In this document: in pieces, positions 36,710 to 62,198 of the stretch
Layout: the number at the start of each line of letters is the position of its first letter
How positions within the stretch are numbered: the first letter of the stretch is position 1
Assembly (NCBI GenBank): GCA_017427545.1
Contig: JAFRSO010000015.1
Location: forward strand, 1-64,000
DNA length: 64,000 bases
Source: Selenomonadaceae bacterium
Lineage (GTDB): Bacteria; Bacillota; Negativicutes; Selenomonadales; Selenomonadaceae
Direction of reading: 5' to 3'
Notes under the pieces: model-generated
The model's database searches: none
Seen by the model: the letters and a program-made list of their open reading frames with translations, nothing else
What the model was told of the DNA's origin: nothing
Translations under genes and position numbers: made by a program

Positions 36710-37736
36710 AAATATTTTAGTCAACGCGCTGGTAAATTTGGGCGACGTGGTATTGACGACTTCCGCGCTTGCCCTAATCAAAAAAAATTTCCCCGACACG
36801 AAAATTACAATGCTCGTCAAACCGGTTGTAGCTGACGCCGTGATTGATAATCCCGTTGTCGACGATGTGATTGTCCTCGATTATCGCGCCAAAGAAAATT
36901 CTTTCCAAAAGATGCGTGAACTCGTCCGCGAAATTCGGCGGAGAAATTTTGACTTGGCAATTTCATTCGACCGCAAACTTCGTCCCGCGCTGATAAATTT
37001 TTTCGCAAGGATACCTCGACGCGTCGGCCCCTCAAAAGTTTTCGACGACAATAAAAGCCGCGTGACTTTACTTTATACCGACGTTGTGGAAATTTCTCAC
37101 GACCTCAACAAGACTTTGCAGGCGGAAACTTATCAAGAAATCGTCCGCAAATTTTTTAACATTGACGGTCACGCCGAACCTGTTTTCCCGAAAAAAAATT
37201 CTCCCGTCGCCGAAAAATTATTAGCCCGCCTGCCCAATGCTGAATTTAAAATCGCGCTCTGTGTCAAGGGAACTTTTCCGCTAAAGACGTGGAGTAAAGA
37301 ATATTTCGCCGAAGTCGTCCGCGAGCTTAAGAAAAATTACGACGCGGCATTTTTTATTGTCGGCGCGCCCAACGATAAAACTTATGCCGACGAAGTGATT
37401 GCCGAGATTGGCGGCGGCGTGGAAAATTTTTGCGGTGAAACTTCGCTGACGGATTTGGCTGAACTTTTTCGACGCGCGGATTTATTTATCACGGTGGACA
37501 CGGGCGCAACTCATATTGCCGCGACGACCGGTGTTAAGATGGTCACGATGTACGGCTGCACAAGTCCCGACCGCTGGCACCCGATTAATCCAAATGCCGT
37601 CGCACTCACGAGCCGAGAGCCTTGTTGCCCATGCACATTCAAAGCCGAGGAGTGTCCGACTTATCCGAAGCCCGCTTGCCTGCAAAATGTCACGCCCGTT
37701 CAAGTCCTCAATGCCGCGAAAAAATTTTTAACTTGA
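36702..37736 (+). CDS. GT9 heptosyltransferase-like protein
   Basis: A 344-aa protein of the ADP-heptose:LPS heptosyltransferase family: NILVNALVNLGDVVLTTSAL at the start, KTWSKEYFAEVVREL near residue 190, VDTGATHIAATTGVKMVTMYG near 266, and the late GCTSPDRWHPINP. Cys-rich end (EPCCPCTFKAEECP). Together with the preceding genes it points to LPS core assembly in a diderm cell. Ended by a hairpin at 37757. Confidence 0.9.
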   Translation: MFKNILVNALVNLGDVVLTTSALALIKKNFPDTKITMLVKPVVADAVIDNPVVDDVIVLDYRAKENSFQKMRELVREIRRRNFDLAISFDRKLRPALINFFARIPRRVGPSKVFDDNKSRVTLLYTDVVEISHDLNKTLQAETYQEIVRKFFNIDGHAEPVFPKKNSPVAEKLLARLPNAEFKIALCVKGTFPLKTWSKEYFAEVVRELKKNYDAAFFIVGAPNDKTYADEVIAEIGGGVENFCGETSLTDLAELFRRADLFITVDTGATHIAATTGVKMVTMYGCTSPDRWHPINPNAVALTSREPCCPCTFKAEECPTYPKPACLQNVTPVQVLNAAKKFLT

Positions 37737-37750
37737 AACGGCTTGCGTTA

Positions 37751-37784
37751 AAAAAATTGCCCTCCGAAGTTGGAAGGCAAATTT
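37751..37784. terminator. bidirectional terminator
   Basis: TTGCCCTCC and GGAAGGCAA pair with one mismatch around GAAGTT; A residues on the left and T residues on the right. Separates the glycan run from the convergent kinase gene. Confidence 0.75.
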
Positions 37785-45656: not shown

Positions 45657-47513
45657 TTGGCATTTTTTTTGATAGTGCCGTCCGTCATGATAGTCAGCAT
45701 TTTGCTGATTCACGCGCTGGCAAATCGGCTGGGGTTGAGAATTTTTTACCCGACGCTTTTTGCAGTGGCGGTGCTGTCGGTCATGGTCAACTTTGCAACG
45801 GTATTTTTCACGCCCGCGATAGGTCGCGAATATCTTTTGCGGCTTGGATTGATGATTTTAGCGGCGTCGTTCCTGTTGACATTGGCGAATCAATTTTTGA
45901 TAAAACAACAGCGTGAGCAGGAAAGAAAATTTGACGAGGAAGTTAAAGCGGCTTACGAGGCTGAAAGGAAAAATCAGCCGGCATCACTCGCTAACGTGGA
46001 ATGGGAAGAAGTTTTCACTCCACAAAAATACAATGAATCTGAACCAGTCGAAGAGAAAATTTCTGCTGACGTTGAACCTGTCGAAGAAAAAATTTCTGCC
46101 GACGTTGAGCCTGTTGAGGAAAAAATTTCTGCCGACGTTGAATCTGTCGAAGAAAAAATTTCAGCTGACGTTGAAGCTGTCGAAGAGAAAATTTCTGCGG
46201 AAGTTGAGCCAGTCGAAGAGAAAATTTCTGCTGACGTTGAAGCTGTCGAAGAGAAAATTTCTGCGGAAGTTGAACCAGTCGAGGAGAAAATTTCTGCGGA
46301 GGTTGAGCCTGTCGAAGAGAAAATTTCTGCGGAAGTTGAACCAGTCGAGGAGAAAATTTCTGCGGAGGTTGAGCCTGTCGAGGAGAAAATTTCTGCGGAG
46401 GTTGAGCCTGTCGAAGAGAAAATTTCTGCGGAAGTTGAACCAGTCGAGGAGAAAATTTCTGCGGACGTTGAGCCTGTCGAGGAGAAAATTTCTGCGGACG
46501 TTGAACCTGTCGAGGAAAAAATTTCTGCGGAAGTTGAACCAGTCGAGGAGAAAATTTCTGCGGAGGTTGAGCCTGTCGAGGAAAAAATTTCTGCGGAGGT
46601 TGAGCCTGTCGAAGAGAAAATTTCTGCGGAGGTTGAGCCTGTCGAAGAGAAAATTTCTGCGGACGTTGAGCCTGTCGAAGAGAAAATTTCTGCGGAGGTT
46701 GAGCCTGTCGAAGAGAAAATTTCAGCGGACGTTGAATCTGTCGAAGAAAAAATTTCAGCGGAAGTTGAGCCCGATAAAAATATTTCGGTCGACTTAAAGC
46801 CGCTTGAAAAATCAAAGCAACTTGAAGAATTCCCGCTGGAAGAAGTCTTTAAGCCGTTGCCCGAAGTCAAACCGGAAGAGGCTGATAAACCAATCGAACT
46901 CAAAAATGATGAAGATAATTTCCCGCTGGAAGAAGTCTTCAAGCCGCTACCCGAAGTCAAGCCGGAAAAAGTTGAGCCTCCGCCGGAATCAAAAGGCACT
47001 CCTAAGAACGCGGAACTTTTCCCGTTGCAGGAAGTTTTCCGCCCGCTGTCAGCTTTAAACCTCGACAAAATCGAAGAGATGACGCAGGATGAAAAAGATT
47101 CCGAGCAAGAATCAGAGCTTGAAGATATCCCCGAAACGCTCGACGAAATTTTGGACGAGGCCTATAATAAGCGCGATCAAGGGCAAGTCTGGCAGGCGAT
47201 TGAGCTTTATAAACAGGTACTCGAACGCTATCAAAACGACGATTACGCGCCATTCGTGGCGATTGATTTGGTCAATATCTACAAGGAGCAGGCACTTTAC
47301 TCCAAGGCGATAAAAACTTACGAGGAGGCTTTGAAGTTGCCATCGGTCAAGCGCAACGATTCAATCAAAAAAGAATTCGTCAGCAGCCTGGCTTATATGC
47401 GAGTTGCCCGCGATATTCTGTTGAAGCATCATGAATTGTCGACACCGTTTGGCAATTTGTCAAAAGAAATTTTGCAGGAGATTGACACCGAATTTAAAAA
47501 GGTGCAATACTAG
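45657..47513 (+). CDS. membrane protein with 22 x 11-aa Glu-rich repeats and a TPR-like C-terminus
   Basis: 618 aa. Residues 1-85 hold three membrane helices. A coiled linker (KQQREQERKFDEEVKAAYEA) leads into 22 copies of an 11-residue unit like EPVEEKISAEV. After this come three copies of FPLEEVFKPLPEVKPE-like segments (a related WEEVFTP occurs before the repeats). The last about 130 residues are helical with TPR-like pairs (AYNKRDQGQVWQAIELYKQV, ALYSKAIKTYEEALKLP). The start is a TTG after GGAGGG. The repeat block probably acts as a long acidic spacer. Function unknown; the downstream PRC-barrel gene has similar repeats. Confidence 0.82.
   Translation: MAFFLIVPSVMIVSILLIHALANRLGLRIFYPTLFAVAVLSVMVNFATVFFTPAIGREYLLRLGLMILAASFLLTLANQFLIKQQREQERKFDEEVKAAYEAERKNQPASLANVEWEEVFTPQKYNESEPVEEKISADVEPVEEKISADVEPVEEKISADVESVEEKISADVEAVEEKISAEVEPVEEKISADVEAVEEKISAEVEPVEEKISAEVEPVEEKISAEVEPVEEKISAEVEPVEEKISAEVEPVEEKISAEVEPVEEKISADVEPVEEKISADVEPVEEKISAEVEPVEEKISAEVEPVEEKISAEVEPVEEKISAEVEPVEEKISADVEPVEEKISAEVEPVEEKISADVESVEEKISAEVEPDKNISVDLKPLEKSKQLEEFPLEEVFKPLPEVKPEEADKPIELKNDEDNFPLEEVFKPLPEVKPEKVEPPPESKGTPKNAELFPLQEVFRPLSALNLDKIEEMTQDEKDSEQESELEDIPETLDEILDEAYNKRDQGQVWQAIELYKQVLERYQNDDYAPFVAIDLVNIYKEQALYSKAIKTYEEALKLPSVKRNDSIKKEFVSSLAYMRVARDILLKHHELSTPFGNLSKEILQEIDTEFKKVQY
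46041..46766 (+). repeat. 33-bp coding minisatellite, 22 units
   Basis: 726 bp, exactly 22 x 33, each encoding 11 residues. Units differ mainly at the third residue (Pro, Ser or Ala) and Asp/Glu near the end. Because no unit carries a stop in several frames, long shadow frames appear on both strands. Confidence 0.97.
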
Positions 47514-57224: not shown

Positions 57225-58463
57225 ATGCAATCAATCGTTAAAGATATGTCGTTGGCACCTTCGGGTCATGACAAAATTGAATGGGTAAAAAATTTTATGC
57301 CGGTGATGAGCGCAATCGACAGGGAGTTTTCGCAGTCAAAACCGTTCGCGGGTAAAAAAATTTCGATAACATTGCACCTTGAGGCGAAGACTGCATATAT
57401 GGCGGAAGTCTTCATGCACGCGGGCGCGGACGTTGTGATAACCGGCTCGAATCCGCTTTCCACTCAAGACGACGTGGCGGCTGCTCTTGCTGAAGACGGC
57501 GTTACGGTTTTTGCGACGCACGGTTGCTCGGCTGAAGAATACAACGATTATCTCAACAAGGCGGCTGATTTTGCGCCCGAAATTTACATTGACGACGGCG
57601 GCGACTTCACAGAACTTTTGCACACCACTCGACGCGACGCCCTCAAAAATATTATCGGCGGTTCGGAGGAGACTACAACCGGTGTTTTAAGACTTCGTGC
57701 CCTGGAACGTCAAGGCAAGCTTGCATATCCGATGATTGCCGCCAACGATGCTTACTGCAAATTCCTGTTCGATAATCGCTACGGCACGGGGCAATCGACT
57801 TGGGATGGCATTATGCGCACGACTAATTTGGTTGTGGCGGGAAAGACTGTTGTTATCGCCGGCTATGGTTGGTGCGGCAAGGGCGGTGCAATGCGTGCTC
57901 GCGGACTTGGGGCAAATGTCATTGTCACGGAAGTTGATCCGATTAAAGCTATCGAGGCAGTTTTTGACGGCTTCAGAGTTATGCCGATGATTGAGGCCGC
58001 TCCACTCGGCGATATTTTCTTGACACTCACGGGCGACAAGGACGTTATCACCGGCGAACATTATCCGCTGATGAAAAACGGCGCGATGCTTGCCAATGCC
58101 GGCCACTTCGACGTTGAAGTTAATATTCCCGAACTTGCCGCGCAGTCAGTCAGCAGAAAAGTTGTCCGCAAAAATGTTGAGGAATTTTTACAGCGCGACG
58201 GCAGAAAAATTTATCTGCTGGCGGAAGGTCGACTGGTTAATCTTGCGTCAGGCGACGGTCACCCCGCTGAAATTATGGACTTAAGCTTCGCAGTTCAATT
58301 TTTCAGCGCGGCTCATATCCTCCACAACTACAGCAAGCTTGACAAAAAAGTTTACCTCATGCCCGAAGAAATTAACACGAAGATTGCGGAGATTAAGCTG
58401 GACTCAATCGGCGTGAAAATCGACACGCTAACCGACGCTCAACGCGAATATCTTGGCTTATGA
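57225..58463 (+). CDS. ahcY: adenosylhomocysteinase
   Basis: Reversibly splits S-adenosylhomocysteine into adenosine and homocysteine with tightly bound NAD+. The 412-aa protein has SITLHLEAKTAYMAEVFMHAGA near residue 50, EETTTGVLRLRAL near 150, NDAYCKFLFDNRYGTGQS near 180, and the NAD loop VVIAGYGWCGKGGAMRARGLGA near 210. The end LGL replaces the usual ...YRY; the shorter form resembles archaeal and anaerobe types. GGGAGGA before the ATG. Stop overlaps brnT by 4 bp. Confidence 0.95.
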   Translation: MQSIVKDMSLAPSGHDKIEWVKNFMPVMSAIDREFSQSKPFAGKKISITLHLEAKTAYMAEVFMHAGADVVITGSNPLSTQDDVAAALAEDGVTVFATHGCSAEEYNDYLNKAADFAPEIYIDDGGDFTELLHTTRRDALKNIIGGSEETTTGVLRLRALERQGKLAYPMIAANDAYCKFLFDNRYGTGQSTWDGIMRTTNLVVAGKTVVIAGYGWCGKGGAMRARGLGANVIVTEVDPIKAIEAVFDGFRVMPMIEAAPLGDIFLTLTGDKDVITGEHYPLMKNGAMLANAGHFDVEVNIPELAAQSVSRKVVRKNVEEFLQRDGRKIYLLAEGRLVNLASGDGHPAEIMDLSFAVQFFSAAHILHNYSKLDKKVYLMPEEINTKIAEIKLDSIGVKIDTLTDAQREYLGL

Positions 58464-58801
58464 AAACATCAATCGACGGTCGGCTATTTGAGTGGGACGA
58501 CGCCAAAAACAAAATCAACAAGATTAAACACGGTATCAATTTCAAGACGGCGGCGCGAGTTTTTAGCGACCCGTATCTCTTTATTGAAGAGGATTCCAGC
58601 CATTCTATTGATGAGGATCGTTGGAAAGCTATTGGCATGGTTGACGATATTTTGCTGGTCATCTACACTGAACGAGGTGAAAGTACTCGTTTAATTTCGG
58701 CACGAAAAGCCGGAGACGAAGATAGGAGGAAATATTATGGCGACCGTATTTTATTTTTTACCGAATCCCCCGCCGCCTTTGACGGAGGAGGAGAAGGCTG
58801 A
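58460..58801 (+). CDS. brnT: BrnT-family ribonuclease toxin
   Basis: A 113-aa RelE-like toxin: FEWDDAKNKINKIKHGINFKTAARVFSD near the start, then DEDRWKAIGMVDDILLVIYTERGE and TRLISARKAGDEDRRKYY, the typical BrnT order. The last about 20 residues (after RRKYY) overlap the antitoxin gene in another frame and look like an extension caused by a lost stop. It is translationally coupled to ahcY by a 4-bp overlap, an unusual setting. Confidence 0.88.
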   Translation: MKTSIDGRLFEWDDAKNKINKIKHGINFKTAARVFSDPYLFIEEDSSHSIDEDRWKAIGMVDDILLVIYTERGESTRLISARKAGDEDRRKYYGDRILFFTESPAAFDGGGEG

Positions 58802-58985
58802 ACTTGCCGCTTTGAAAGACCGCCCGATTGTTTACGACGAAGAATGCCCGCCCACGACTAAGGAAGAAGCTGACGAAGCTATTTACCTTATGCGCAAGTA
58901 CAAGACGCGTCGTATCACAAAAGAAATTTTGATGGCGGAATTCCCCGAACGTTTTCAAAAGCATAAATCGGAGGCGGCAGGATAA
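58737..58985 (+). CDS. BrnA-like antitoxin, 82 aa
   Basis: Begins MATVFYFLPNPPPPLTEEEK and has the core AELAALKDRPIVYDEECPP, similar to the N-terminal motif of BrnA, then YLMRKYKTRRITKEILMAEF. Usual BrnA proteins carry a ribbon-helix-helix end; the end here (ERFQKHKSEAAG) is less clear. AGGAGG precedes the ATG; overlaps brnT by 65 bp. A paralogue is at 49388. Confidence 0.75.
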   Translation: MATVFYFLPNPPPPLTEEEKAELAALKDRPIVYDEECPPTTKEEADEAIYLMRKYKTRRITKEILMAEFPERFQKHKSEAAG

Positions 58986-58994
58986 AAATTTTTC

Positions 58995-59023
58995 GCAGGT
59001 GTCTTCGGACGTCTGCTTTTTAT
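58995..59023 (+). terminator. terminator of the ahcY-brnTA operon
   Basis: A 9-bp stem capped by TTCG (GCAGGTGTC / GACGTCTGC), followed by TTTTTATTT. Confidence 0.9.
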
Positions 59024-59033
59024 TTACGGCAAA

Positions 59034-59116
59034 GAAAAACCTCCGACATTGCGCCGAAGGGATTTTGATTGTTTTGCGACCGTGACGCCGAATTATCGAC
59101 GAGCCGCGATTATTTC
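59034..59116 (-). repeat. duplicated trailer with terminator hairpin, copy 1
   Basis: On the minus strand it holds GCGGCTCGTCGATAATTCGG, then CCTTCGG...GTCGGAGG and a T run. Nearly the same as copy 2 at 59914-59998. It lies downstream of the first precursor gene and works as its terminator. Confidence 0.85.
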
Positions 59117-59138
59117 CGTGTTGAACGTTGCAAGATTA

Positions 59139-59480
59139 TTAAGAGAGATCCGGCATCGGTTTGCCCAAATTTTTGGCAACGATTTTGAATGCTAATTCGC
59201 GGCTGATTTCTTGACCGTCTCTATAGTATTTGTTAGTTTTTGGCCCCCAATATTGGTCGACACGTATGCCGAACCCTTTAAAAATCTGAGAAACTTCAAT
59301 TGCAGCTTCGCTGAATTTGGAAAACTCTATGAGATCTTCTGCGCTTCTTCCGGCGATTCGTAAGCCAAGTTTTTTCAGGACGCGAGTATCGGCTGCCGTT
59401 TCGTCAATTGTGCCGCCGCTTACCTCGTCGAGTTCGTCGTCTGTGAGCATTTCGTCCGCGATTTTCTTTTCTTCAGCCAT
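59139..59480 (-). CDS. double-glycine-leader precursor protein 1
   Basis: 113 aa. The leader MAEEKKIADEMLTDDELDEV ends in SGG, the pattern of peptides cut after GG by C39-peptidase ABC transporters. The mature part of about 85 residues has no Cys, and includes YWGPKTNKYYRDGQEISREL and a helical end. That region matches precursor 3 (NKYFDKNNNEISRNKAMKI). ATG at 59480 with GGAGG 7 bp ahead. No exporter or modifying enzyme is in view. A folded secreted peptide, bacteriocin or signalling protein is possible. Confidence 0.75.
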   Translation of the reverse strand: MAEEKKIADEMLTDDELDEVSGGTIDETAADTRVLKKLGLRIAGRSAEDLIEFSKFSEAAIEVSQIFKGFGIRVDQYWGPKTNKYYRDGQEISRELAFKIVAKNLGKPMPDLS

Positions 59481-59522
59481 AATATCAACCTCCAATCAAA
59501 TAAATGTATTTTTTTCTGATTA

Positions 59523-59870
59523 TTATCCCTGCAAGTGTTTGTTTGTCAGGTATTCAAGAACTTTTTCCTTAACTGCACCGTGGGAAATGTATTTTTTCCG
59601 GTCATTGTCCCTGTAAGTGTTCGTTTTGCCGGCGTCGTCACTGAAATTCAGGATAAATCCGGTGCTTATGTCGGCGGTTACGTTGATGTTGTCTTTCAAC
59701 CACTTTTCAAGCCCCGAACGGCTCAATTTTTTTGCATCGCTGTTCCTTAAAATCTCGTAACTGAAGATTAAGTCGCGAAGTTCTTTGTATTCGCCGTAGG
59801 TGCCACCCGCCACGCCGTTGAGTTGCTCATCGGTGAGCTTTTCGTCTGCGAATTTCTTTTCTTCCGCCAT
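59523..59870 (-). CDS. double-glycine-leader precursor protein 2
   Basis: 115 aa. The leader is nearly the same as that of precursor 1 (MAEEKKFADEKLTDEQLNGV then AGG). The mature part has EYKELRDLIFSYEILRNSDA, then NFSDDAGKTNTYRDNDRKKY and a helical end. No Cys. The last third shares the Tyr-Arg-Asp plus basic-helix layout with precursors 1 and 3. ATG at 59870 with a GGAGGTTGATATT leader identical to that of gene 1. Confidence 0.75.
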   Translation of the reverse strand: MAEEKKFADEKLTDEQLNGVAGGTYGEYKELRDLIFSYEILRNSDAKKLSRSGLEKWLKDNINVTADISTGFILNFSDDAGKTNTYRDNDRKKYISHGAVKEKVLEYLTNKHLQG

Positions 59871-59913
59871 AATATCAACCTCCAAAGTGTTTTATGTAGC
59901 TTACATATTCCGA

Positions 59914-59998
59914 AAAAACCCTCCGACATACGCCGAAGGGCTTTTGATTGCGTTGCGACCATGACGCCGAATTATCGACGAGCCGCTTGAGTATCCGA
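59914..59998 (-). repeat. duplicated trailer with terminator hairpin, copy 2
   Basis: CCCTTCGGC pairs with GTCGGAGGG on the minus strand, then six T residues; preceded by GCGGCTCGTCGATAATTCGG as in copy 1. Serves as terminator of precursor gene 3. Confidence 0.87.
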
Positions 59999-60006
59999 AA
60001 CTTCAA

Positions 60007-60375
60007 TTAAAAGTAATTTTGCATGTCCAATTTCGTAAAATCTTTATTGAAAGCTTTTGCGGCGATTTTCATAGCCTTGTTGCGAGAAATCTCGTTGTTG
60101 TTTTTGTCGAAATATTTGTTTTGGCCGCCCCAACTGGACACCATAGTTACGCCTGCTTTTTTCCACGCGTCGGAAACCTCGTCGCTAATGCTGCCGTACT
60201 CGAAAAAGGTTCTTGTTGCGCCGTAGCGATCGCAACCGGTTCCGATATCGTTCAAAAAGCGACTGTCGCCGGCAACTTCACTGTAAGTGCCGCCCGCAAC
60301 TTGATCGAGTTCGCTATCACTCATTGCTTCGAGTTTCGCATTGATTTTCTTGATATTTTCCTCACGTGTTGCCAT
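60007..60375 (-). CDS. double-glycine-leader precursor protein 3
   Basis: 122 aa. Leader MATREENIKKINAKLEAMSD followed by SELDQVAGG. The mature part contains a single Cys (GTGCDRYGATRTFFEYG), SDEVSDAWKKAGVTMVSSWG and NKYFDKNNNEISRNKAMKIA. The last stretch is homologous to that of precursor 1. ATG at 60375 after GGAGGCAAGCACT. Confidence 0.75.
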   Translation of the reverse strand: MATREENIKKINAKLEAMSDSELDQVAGGTYSEVAGDSRFLNDIGTGCDRYGATRTFFEYGSISDEVSDAWKKAGVTMVSSWGGQNKYFDKNNNEISRNKAMKIAAKAFNKDFTKLDMQNYF

Positions 60376-60408
60376 AGTGCTTGCCTCCAAATTGTTTTCT
60401 GCCGGTTT

Positions 60409-60744
60409 TTAACGCTTGACATCAAATCCGGGCACGGGGTCGACGTTCGGATTGGGATTCGGGTTGCCTATTGGCGCAGGAGCGGCTTTACTGTACTTCT
60501 GAACGTTAAATCCGGGAACGGGGTAAACGTTCGGATTGGGATTCGGGTTGCCTATTGTCAAGGGATCGACTTTAATCTCTTGCTTCAAACCAAATCCGGG
60601 AACAGGGTCGATGTTCGGATTGGTTTTCGGATCGCCCATTGTCGAAGGGTCAATGCCTGCGCCTGCCACTCTGTCGAGTTCCTCATCACTCATTGCGTCG
60701 AGTTCCGCGTTGATTTTCTTGAGGTTTTCTTCACGTGTTGCCAT
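60409..60744 (-). CDS. double-glycine-leader precursor protein 4 with 28-aa repeats
   Basis: 111 aa. Leader MATREENLKKINAELDAMSD then EELDRVAGA, so the second Gly is Ala. The mature part has a 28-residue period occurring 2.7 times, each unit with NPNxDPVPGF or NPNVYPVPGF (positions about 42, 70 and 98). No Cys, many Pro and Asn. It looks like several core peptides in one precursor, or a flexible repeat protein. ATG at 60744 after GGAGGTAAACATT. The minus-strand region upstream has TTGACA followed by a (TA)n run. Confidence 0.72.
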   Translation of the reverse strand: MATREENLKKINAELDAMSDEELDRVAGAGIDPSTMGDPKTNPNIDPVPGFGLKQEIKVDPLTIGNPNPNPNVYPVPGFNVQKYSKAAPAPIGNPNPNPNVDPVPGFDVKR

Positions 60745-60870
60745 AATGTTTACCTCCAAACCAAAATTTTCAAACGAATCAAGTATATATATATATTGTC
60801 AAGACCTTTTTAAAATATTTTCCGGAGACAAAATCCGTGACAAATTAAATTTTGCAAGGGATTTTCTACT

Positions 60871-60899
60871 TTGACGCGCTGTGTTAAAATGTTTTTAAT
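60871..60899 (+). promoter_or_regulatory. promoter of mtaD
   Basis: TTGACG, 17 bp, TTTAAT, about 18 bp before the ATG. Divergent from the precursor cluster. Confidence 0.62.
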
Positions 60900-60917
60900 C
60901 AAACTGGGAAATGAGGA

Positions 60918-62198
60918 ATGAATGTGGATAAAAATTTCGTAATCAGCGGTGTGAAGATGTTTAAGCCCGACGGTACTGTTGAGGTGGCGAATATTCACGT
61001 CAGCGGCGATAGGATCGTTAAGGGAAATGGGAAATGGGAAACGGGAAAAGTTATTGACGGCAGAAATAAATTTGCGACGCCGGGATTGGTCAACGCTCAC
61101 ACGCACGCTTCAATGACTTTGCTTAGAAGTTATTCCGACGACAAGGCGTTGATGGATTGGCTCCAAAAAGATATTTGGCCGATTGAAGACAAAATGACGC
61201 GCAAAGATATTTATTGGGGAGCGGCATTGGCGGCAGTTGAAATGATTCGCGGCGGGACGACTGCTTTTGCTGACATGTACGGCCCCGACATGAGCGAAGT
61301 TGCCAAAGTCGTCGACGAATCGGGCTTGCGTGGCAGTTTAAGTCAAGGGCTTATAAGTTTCGCCAACGGTGATAAAAAACTTGCCTCAAACGTCGAACTG
61401 TATAAAAATTTTCACGGCGCAGCGGACGGTCGAATTACCGTAATGTTCGGGCCGCACGCGATTTACACTTGCCCGCCCGATTACCTTAAAAAGGTCGTGA
61501 ATGAGGCGTCCAAACTCGGCGCGGAAATTCATATGCACATGAACGAAACTCAAACCGAAATTAACGATTGCTTGAAAAATTACGGCAAGCGTCCGTTTGA
61601 AGTCGTCAACGAAACGGGGCTGTTTGATCTTGGAACTTTGGCGGCTCATTGCGTCCACTTAAGCGATAACGAAATTGAAATCATCAAGCAGAAAAAAATT
61701 CGCGTGGCTCACAATCCCGGCTCCAACATGAAACTTGCAAGCGGCATTTGTCCCGCGACGAAACTTTTGGCTCAAGGCGTGACGGTTGCAATCGGTACTG
61801 ACGGCGCGTCAAGCAATAACAATCTCGACATGGTGGAAGAAATCAGATTGGCGGCATTGTTGGCAAAAGTCGACACGCTCGATCCGAAAGTTATTCCGGC
61901 AGCTCAAGCAATTCAAATGGCAACGGAATTTGGCGCGAAGGCTCTCGGCTTGCAAAAAGTCGGACGGCTTGAGGAAGGTTGCAAGGCGGATATTGTGCTT
62001 TGGGATATGGGCGGCGTTGAGTGGCAGCCGAATTATAATCCCGCGTCACTTTTGGTATATTCGGCGAACTCTGCGGCGGCGGATACAGTCATCGTCGACG
62101 GGAAAATTTTAATGGAAAATCGCGAGCTGAAAACTTTGGACGAGGAAAAAATTTTTGCGGAGTTCACGGCCTGCGCAAATCGTCTCACGAAAAATTAA
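60918..62198 (+). CDS. mtaD: 5-methylthioadenosine/S-adenosylhomocysteine deaminase
   Basis: A 426-aa amidohydrolase. The metal site HTHASMTLLRSYSDD lies near residue 57, followed by IRGGTTAFADMYGPDM near 110, HMHMNETQTEINDC near 195, LAAHCVHLSDNEIE near 235, and IGTDGASSNNNLDMVEE near 292. It deaminates MTA or SAH to the inosyl form, in parallel with ahcY in SAH removal. The N-terminal strand region contains a repeat tract read as VKGNGKWETGK. ATG preceded by TGGGAAATGAGG, itself repeat-like. Confidence 0.92.
   Translation: MNVDKNFVISGVKMFKPDGTVEVANIHVSGDRIVKGNGKWETGKVIDGRNKFATPGLVNAHTHASMTLLRSYSDDKALMDWLQKDIWPIEDKMTRKDIYWGAALAAVEMIRGGTTAFADMYGPDMSEVAKVVDESGLRGSLSQGLISFANGDKKLASNVELYKNFHGAADGRITVMFGPHAIYTCPPDYLKKVVNEASKLGAEIHMHMNETQTEINDCLKNYGKRPFEVVNETGLFDLGTLAAHCVHLSDNEIEIIKQKKIRVAHNPGSNMKLASGICPATKLLAQGVTVAIGTDGASSNNNLDMVEEIRLAALLAKVDTLDPKVIPAAQAIQMATEFGAKALGLQKVGRLEEGCKADIVLWDMGGVEWQPNYNPASLLVYSANSAAADTVIVDGKILMENRELKTLDEEKIFAEFTACANRLTKN
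61019..61051. repeat. GGGAAAT-type tract inside mtaD
   Basis: AAGGGAAATGGGAAATGGGA and following units are read in frame in the N-terminal beta part of MtaD. Unit type as in hypF at 24713. Confidence 0.87.

Follow-up and report, generated by a model that had tools for sequence, protein, structure and literature searches.

The window, that is, the whole stretch of 64,000 nucleotides that was analyzed, carries four tandem genes on the minus strand (59142-60744), and the first-pass annotation had given their coordinates, strand, and reading frames correctly. Each of them encodes a precursor of the double-glycine (GG) type. Precursor 1 (60412..60744, 111 aa) has a leader of 29 aa (60658-60744) that ends in GA and a mature part of 82 aa, a Pro/Asn-rich repeat protein in which an 84-base tandem repeat (GNPNPNPNVDPVPGF in the protein; 2.7 copies at 60423..60649) replaces the mature domain. 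Precursor 2 (60010..60375, 122 aa; leader of 29 aa at 60289-60375) has a mature part of 93 aa (60010-60288) with the main-family domain, which was the sequence used for modelling. Precursor 3 (59526..59870, 115 aa; leader of 23 aa at 59802-59870) has a mature part of 92 aa (59526-59801) that belongs to a divergent subfamily, and precursor 4 (59142..59480, 113 aa; leader of 23 aa at 59412-59480) has one of 90 aa (59142-59411), again with the main-family domain. By direct reading of the sequence, a terminator-like stem on the minus strand, CCCTTCGGCGTATGTCGGAGGG followed by a T run (59921..59940), was found between precursors 2 and 3, suggesting that the cluster consists of two units. Another terminator-like stem on this strand is located 3' of precursor 4 (59040..59060). 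An Rfam search of 58400-61200 gave no match. The common ribosome-binding context described earlier was also found, with GGAGG immediately 5' of the ATG in each of the four genes.

No gene for the processing or transport of the four precursors was seen in the window, in agreement with the first-pass annotation. The cluster is adjoined by a gene of the BrnT toxin family (PF04365, E 2e-23) with a small overlapping partner gene (58460-58985). Elsewhere in the window, 45657-47513 encodes a 618-aa protein with about 20 repeats of the EEKISAEVEPV type and a TPR-like C-terminus. Past the window's end, the region C91:67193-71475 encodes a radical SAM/SPASM protein, an ABC transporter free of a peptidase domain, and a protein-kinase-like protein, and is possibly a separate RiPP locus.

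The four leaders, MATREENLKKINAELDAMSDEELDRVAGA, MATREENIKKINAKLEAMSDSELDQVAGG, MAEEKKFADEKLTDEQLNGVAGG, and MAEEKKIADEMLTDDELDEVSGG (29, 29, 23, and 23 aa), end in GA, GG, GG, and GG, which satisfies the criterion of G, A, or S at -1 and G at -2. The residues recognized by peptidase-containing transporters (PCATs) are complete in all four (L/M-12, L-7, V-4, G-2, G/A-1). As a chance control, we used the window together with a further 40 kb from this genome; the two contain 119 ATG starts with a Shine-Dalgarno-like site and an ORF of at least 50 aa. The leader pattern [LMIV]x4Lx2VxG[GAS] occurred within the first 35 residues at 4 of the 119 starts, precisely the four window genes, with about 0.0006 matches per N-terminus expected from composition. 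The double-glycine leaders noticed in the first-pass annotation are therefore genuine.

A homologous mature region had been claimed for three of the four products. Against a main-family profile built without the window sequences, the homology was clear for 60010 (E 1e-21) and 59142 (E 1e-14), whereas 59526 reached only E 3.4 with this profile and E 8e-10 with that of its own subfamily, so that for this member the claim holds only in the sense of a divergent relative. The mature parts are nearly free of Cys (0, 0, 1, and 0 residues), as had been stated, and are hydrophilic, with GRAVY values of -0.39 to -0.83. An AlphaFold model of the 93-aa mature part of 60010, built from 52 sequences, reached a pLDDT of 95.3 and a pTM of 0.87, with the predicted order helix-helix-helix-strand-strand-helix-helix; the main mature domain (80-100 aa) is thus confidently predicted to form a compact fold. 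G46, N57, and Y59 are invariant columns of the domain, and an omega of about 0.2 over 115 pairs indicates purifying selection, with no sign of diversifying selection. Searches of the mature domain against Pfam, NCBIfam, PHROGs, PADLOC, and the sequences in the PDB returned nothing convincing. Structure comparison with the full precursor and with the mature domain found no match, which does not in itself show that the fold is novel; the best values for the mature model were E 1.9 with Foldseek, E 0.25 with BFVD, and Z 3.8 with VIA-align (rmsd 3.8, 77 aligned). The suggestion that the products are folded proteins and neither lanthipeptides nor common bacteriocins is supported by the model, with its pLDDT of 95, by the lack of Cys, and by the absence of a family match.

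The genome to which the window belongs is a draft with 91 contigs, a total length of 2.44 Mb, and a completeness of 83%. The same leaders occur elsewhere in it, on contigs C46 (6), C57 (4), C62 (3), C75 (1), and C41 (1), and a search with the promoter described below added one precursor on C25 and one related small ORF on C20. The further leader copies that the first-pass annotation had proposed to look for thus exist as at least 17 GG or GG-like precursors, which with the window's four gives a total of at least 21 for the genome, two of these being truncated at contig ends; we put the family size at about 20 per genome. The mature parts are of two types, short peptides with a length of roughly 25-40 aa and domains, most of which have 80-100 aa, and the Cys content across 67 of them is 0.8%. 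Among 87 leaders counted, L, M, or I stands at position -12, L at -7, V or I at -4, and G at -2; of these, L-7 and G-2 were already contained in the pattern that found the leaders. In several species, HAD-family proteins of about 360 aa with a signal-peptide-like N-terminus are interleaved with GG precursors; such loci are L023:5480-9415 and L024:1701-2777 in the present genome and also L102, L104, L116, and L197.

With the present genome left aside, a search of 36 congeners found precursors in 25, and among 300 genomes of the class the mature domain occurred only in genomes from the same family. The carriers that have names include Quinella sp. 2Q5, 1Q7, and 1Q5 as well as a Selenomonas ruminantium MAG. 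Over 1.8 kb, the window and a contig of Quinella sp. 1Q7 share 82% identity, from which we infer that the source organism is probably a Quinella. In Quinella sp. 1Q7, with five precursors, and in another relative, an array comes after the gene whose end is at window position 37736 (L103:6868-9353 and L119:7483-8111), whereas the corresponding gap in the window (37736-37784) has only 48 bases. Judged from this comparison of loci, whole precursor arrays are gained or lost at this site.

A C39-peptidase transporter had been predicted to lie elsewhere in the genome, and a complete NHLP-type exporter was found on contig C20, which differs from the window contig in this draft assembly. Three C39 matches were found in the genome, two on C38 and one on C20. 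The C20 system comprises ABC1 with the C39 domain (TIGR03796, 970.6 bits, cut-off 853.3), ABC2 (TIGR03797, 728.9 bits, cut-off 709.4), and HlyD (TIGR03794, 227.6 bits, cut-off 156.2), the last being the HlyD-like partner that had been sought; MFP and a TolC-like protein are also part of it. The C39 domain of C20 ABC1 retains Q29, C35, H109, and D125, which sit at a constant offset from the catalytic residues Q21, C27, H101, and D117 of LahT (PMC6363468). C39 domains are bound by hydrophobic leader residues at -4, -7, and -12 (PMC6363468). The C39-like pair on C38 was rejected as the exporter; it is of the HlyB type, lacks the catalytic Cys, and lies beside an RTX-like repeat protein. The absence of any such exporter from the genome, which would have refuted the first-pass annotation, is therefore not the case.

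The upstream regions of the dispersed precursors have the element TGTAAC-N16-CGTATAA in common, the geometry of which is that of ECF promoters. It was found at 14 of the 16 non-window precursors checked in the present genome. The exact sequence occurs there in 13 copies, 12 of which are directly 5' of a GG or GG-like precursor, and the reversed control gave none. Genus-wide, the element or a variant with a spacer of 16 precedes 59 of 86 precursors (0.06 in shuffles), and spacers of 10-15 and 17-23 were found at 0 of the 86. In nine genomes, the exact site lies within 150 nt of 47 of 66 precursor matches, with 0.03 expected. The variants TTAAC/T and TGTCAT keep the spacing and were found in genomes with diverged sigma factors, and a similar element, TGTAACACTTTTCG..CGTATAAAG, precedes some diverged members in other genera.

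A gene for an ECF sigma factor (C20:24272-24808; TIGR02937 match over cut-off) immediately precedes one such promoter, at a distance of about 4 kb from the exporter; no anti-sigma factor was recognized. In relatives these genes are physically linked. The sigma gene adjoins ABC2 in G002, G007, and G011 and lies about 0.3 kb from the TolC-like gene in G017. In G237, which is Selenomonas-like, five precursors, the sigma gene, MFP, HlyD, and ABC1 are found inside 13 kb, precursors adjoin MFP and ABC2 in G282, and further relatives have loci common to sigma and precursors. Across the 36 congeners, the co-occurrence of precursors with sigma (p 0.0008), of precursors with the exporter (p 0.02), and of sigma with the exporter (p 0.0002) was not corrected for phylogeny. 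Seven precursor-free congeners, three of which are 93-100% complete, have no motif, sigma, or ABC1 over cut-off. Precursors without a sigma match were found in five congeners and precursors without any ABC1 match in five, which possibly reflects genome incompleteness. In the literature library searched, double-glycine leaders together with ECF sigma factors led to one unrelated paper, and a link between NHLP and ECF to none.

The four window genes do not follow this pattern. The sigma-type promoter was found at 0 of 4, and a search for a relaxed form gave no match on the coding strand. The regulon is therefore shown for the family and not for these four, and the window cluster probably answers to another promoter.

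Beside the ECF sigma gene lies a small ORF in which a leader-like part ending in LDEVxAAG is followed by about 10-18 residues (L176:5939-6136 on C20 of the present genome, L182:4271-4474, L183:1132-1356, and L146). It has the sigma-type promoter in the present genome, L182, and L146, and is a candidate for a GG-like peptide or a sigma feedback factor. At L094/L142 (G016:C19, motif at 47169), the sigma-type promoter of the folded-domain precursors is followed by a precursor that combines a full Nif11-like leader with a core of 16 aa.

The leaders, exporter genes, promoter, sigma gene, linkage in relatives, fold prediction, and purifying selection, all observed computationally, can be united in one interpretation, which we consider probable as a whole: these are small secreted proteins under sigma control that are exported through C20, and the window cluster uses the same exporter. 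The C39 peptidase of the single NHLP-type exporter of the genome would read the leader of 23-29 aa and cut it after GG or GA during export through ABC1, ABC2, HlyD, MFP, and the TolC-like protein, so that a hydrophilic mature protein of 82-93 aa, probably unmodified, would be released outside the cell. Most precursors are placed singly or in short arrays behind TGTAAC-N16-CGTATAA, and the probable reader of this common promoter type is the ECF sigma factor whose gene lies near the exporter, which would make exporter, switch, and cargo one system. The window cluster would share the exporter but has no such promoter. In the absence of secretion, cleavage, and expression data, the cleavage, the export, the binding of sigma to the promoter, and the role of the proteins are inferred.

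The same export route (PCAT, adaptor, and TolC-like protein) would also serve class II microcin- or bacteriocin-type toxins, that is, unmodified GG-leader proteins that inhibit or kill related cells; this explanation differs from the preferred one in the role. It remains a serious possibility, although we do not favor it. The leader logic and the kind of export machine are alike, many paralogues occur per genome, relatives differ in whether a site that they otherwise share contains an array, and the leaders have weak matches to bacteriocin families. However, no immunity-like gene was recognized beside the precursors by eye in ORF lists, in which small genes are easily missed, the mature domain has no bacteriocin-family match, and the hydrophilic mature parts (GRAVY -0.39 to -0.83) and an omega of about 0.2, which does not indicate diversifying selection, speak against toxins. 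It is unlikely that the genes encode RiPP precursors, with cores that an enzyme such as the radical SAM/SPASM protein about 8 kb away on the same contig would modify prior to export. This protein (C91:68668-69942) has a SPASM match over cut-off (C91:68734-69006), resembles peptide maturases (180.5 bits with the StsB model, cut-off 625), and is encoded next to an ABC transporter gene, and the leaders are related to RiPP-type leaders. Yet it shares no operon with the precursors, from which it is separated by ribosomal and other housekeeping genes; Cys is too scarce in the mature domains for the thioether cores of lanthipeptides or sactipeptides; and these domains are predicted by modelling to fold as they are. 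Moreover, the LanM and LanC families left aside, the loci of precursor arrays in relatives showed no recognizable modifying enzyme. Of the two kinds of modifying enzyme that the first-pass annotation had proposed to look for, a radical SAM gene is thus present near the cluster, but YcaO (PF02624), which a TOMM would require, had no match in the 83%-complete genome. Since the radical SAM/SPASM gene is only about 8 kb off, modification is not excluded, and the modified-peptide explanation stays open for some members.

The regulatory part of the preferred interpretation could be challenged by assuming that the shared upstream element is a housekeeping sigma-70 promoter that was copied with duplicated cassettes, without any sigma regulon. 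TATAA is indeed contained in CGTATAA, any promoter travels with duplicated cassettes, and some of the upstream regions are near-identical. We nevertheless regard this as improbable: the -35 half is TGTAAC and not TTGACA, all 59 of 59 cases have a spacer of exactly 16, TGTAACACTTTTCG..CGTATAAAG is kept before diverged members in other genera, the motif variants (TTAAC/T or TGTCAT at the same spacing) track diverged sigma factors, and the seven congeners without precursors are also without motif, sigma, and ABC1 over cut-off. That the products are cytoplasmic proteins, or chance look-alikes of GG-leader proteins that are not exported at all, can hardly be maintained. Secretion data are absent and the window cluster has no linkage with the exporter, but the chance control picked exactly the four genes, the leaders are conserved across scores of genes, and family members are physically linked to the exporter in relatives.

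With secretion under sigma control as the preferred interpretation, an extracellular interaction function is weakly suggested. Surface or matrix (community) proteins are a tentative proposal for it, antagonism of other cells is a somewhat more doubtful one, and signalling seems unlikely. Because of the purifying selection and because no immunity genes were recognized, we lean slightly toward surface or matrix proteins of the EbfG kind over toxins. More speculatively, and with considerable doubt on our part, Quinella and related Selenomonadaceae may possess a dedicated social system for kin recognition, matrix formation, or antagonism, in which an ECF sigma factor and a C39 exporter serve about 20 exchangeable secreted proteins of an undescribed fold, possibly with a feed-forward loop through the sigma-adjacent GG-like peptide.

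Double-glycine exporters are usually interpreted as bacteriocin or RiPP machines. Here, the cargo of one such exporter appears to be a large set of small folded proteins under sigma control, and no modification enzymes or immunity genes were recognized beside the precursors. The 13-base promoter pattern makes the regulon findable, the exporter, sigma factor, and promoter are accessible to tests in laboratory hosts, and a protein family that is absent from the curated libraries searched becomes directly studiable. The lineage lies near Quinella; this rumen genus is uncultured, and a link between it and low-methane sheep has been described (PMC9585023); the main text of that study does not mention bacteriocins, double-glycine peptides, or sigma factors.

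Among known systems, the NHLP/Nif11 precursors and their export system (Haft, Basu and Mitchell 2010, PMC2887384; TIGR03794, TIGR03796, TIGR03797, TIGR03798) share with the present one the same three exporter families over cut-off, a GG-type leader, paralogous expansion, and precursors that may be unlinked to the exporter, and a few members of the present system have full Nif11-like leaders. However, the window leaders are short (23-29 aa), 60010 scores only 14.5 bits with the Nif11 model TIGR03798 (cut-off 32.3), the other three window precursors do not appear among the matches listed for it, and here the mature domains are folded, have no modification genes beside them, and come with a linked ECF sigma factor. 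The CTB family bacteriocin model NF038167 matched 24 of 50 members at E <=0.01 (best 3.7e-5), in the leader region where inspected, whereas the window member 60010 reached 14.1 bits (cut-off 32) and the tests made showed no relation to the mature domain. Class II microcins are GG-leader proteins of about 10 kDa that carry little or no modification and leave the cell through a PCAT, an adaptor, and TolC (PMC10233263; survey PMC9746304). The present system differs from them in having about 20 paralogues per genome, no recognized immunity gene beside the precursors, and a mature domain without a bacteriocin-family match. In Synechococcus elongatus, the small secreted GG-motif proteins EbfG1-4 depend on one C39 transporter, PteB, and have a role in biofilm and not as antibiotics (PMC4997328). 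Several small GG-motif proteins on one C39 transporter may also be the arrangement here, a parallel drawn on function alone; an ECF sigma regulon of dispersed arrays is not described in the parts of that source consulted. In Microbispora, the pathway-specific ECF sigma factor of the pair MibX/MibW controls the genes of an exported ribosomal peptide, a lantibiotic (PMC4973701). In contrast, no anti-sigma factor was recognized in the present system, and its targets are dispersed single genes and arrays that encode apparently unmodified folded proteins.
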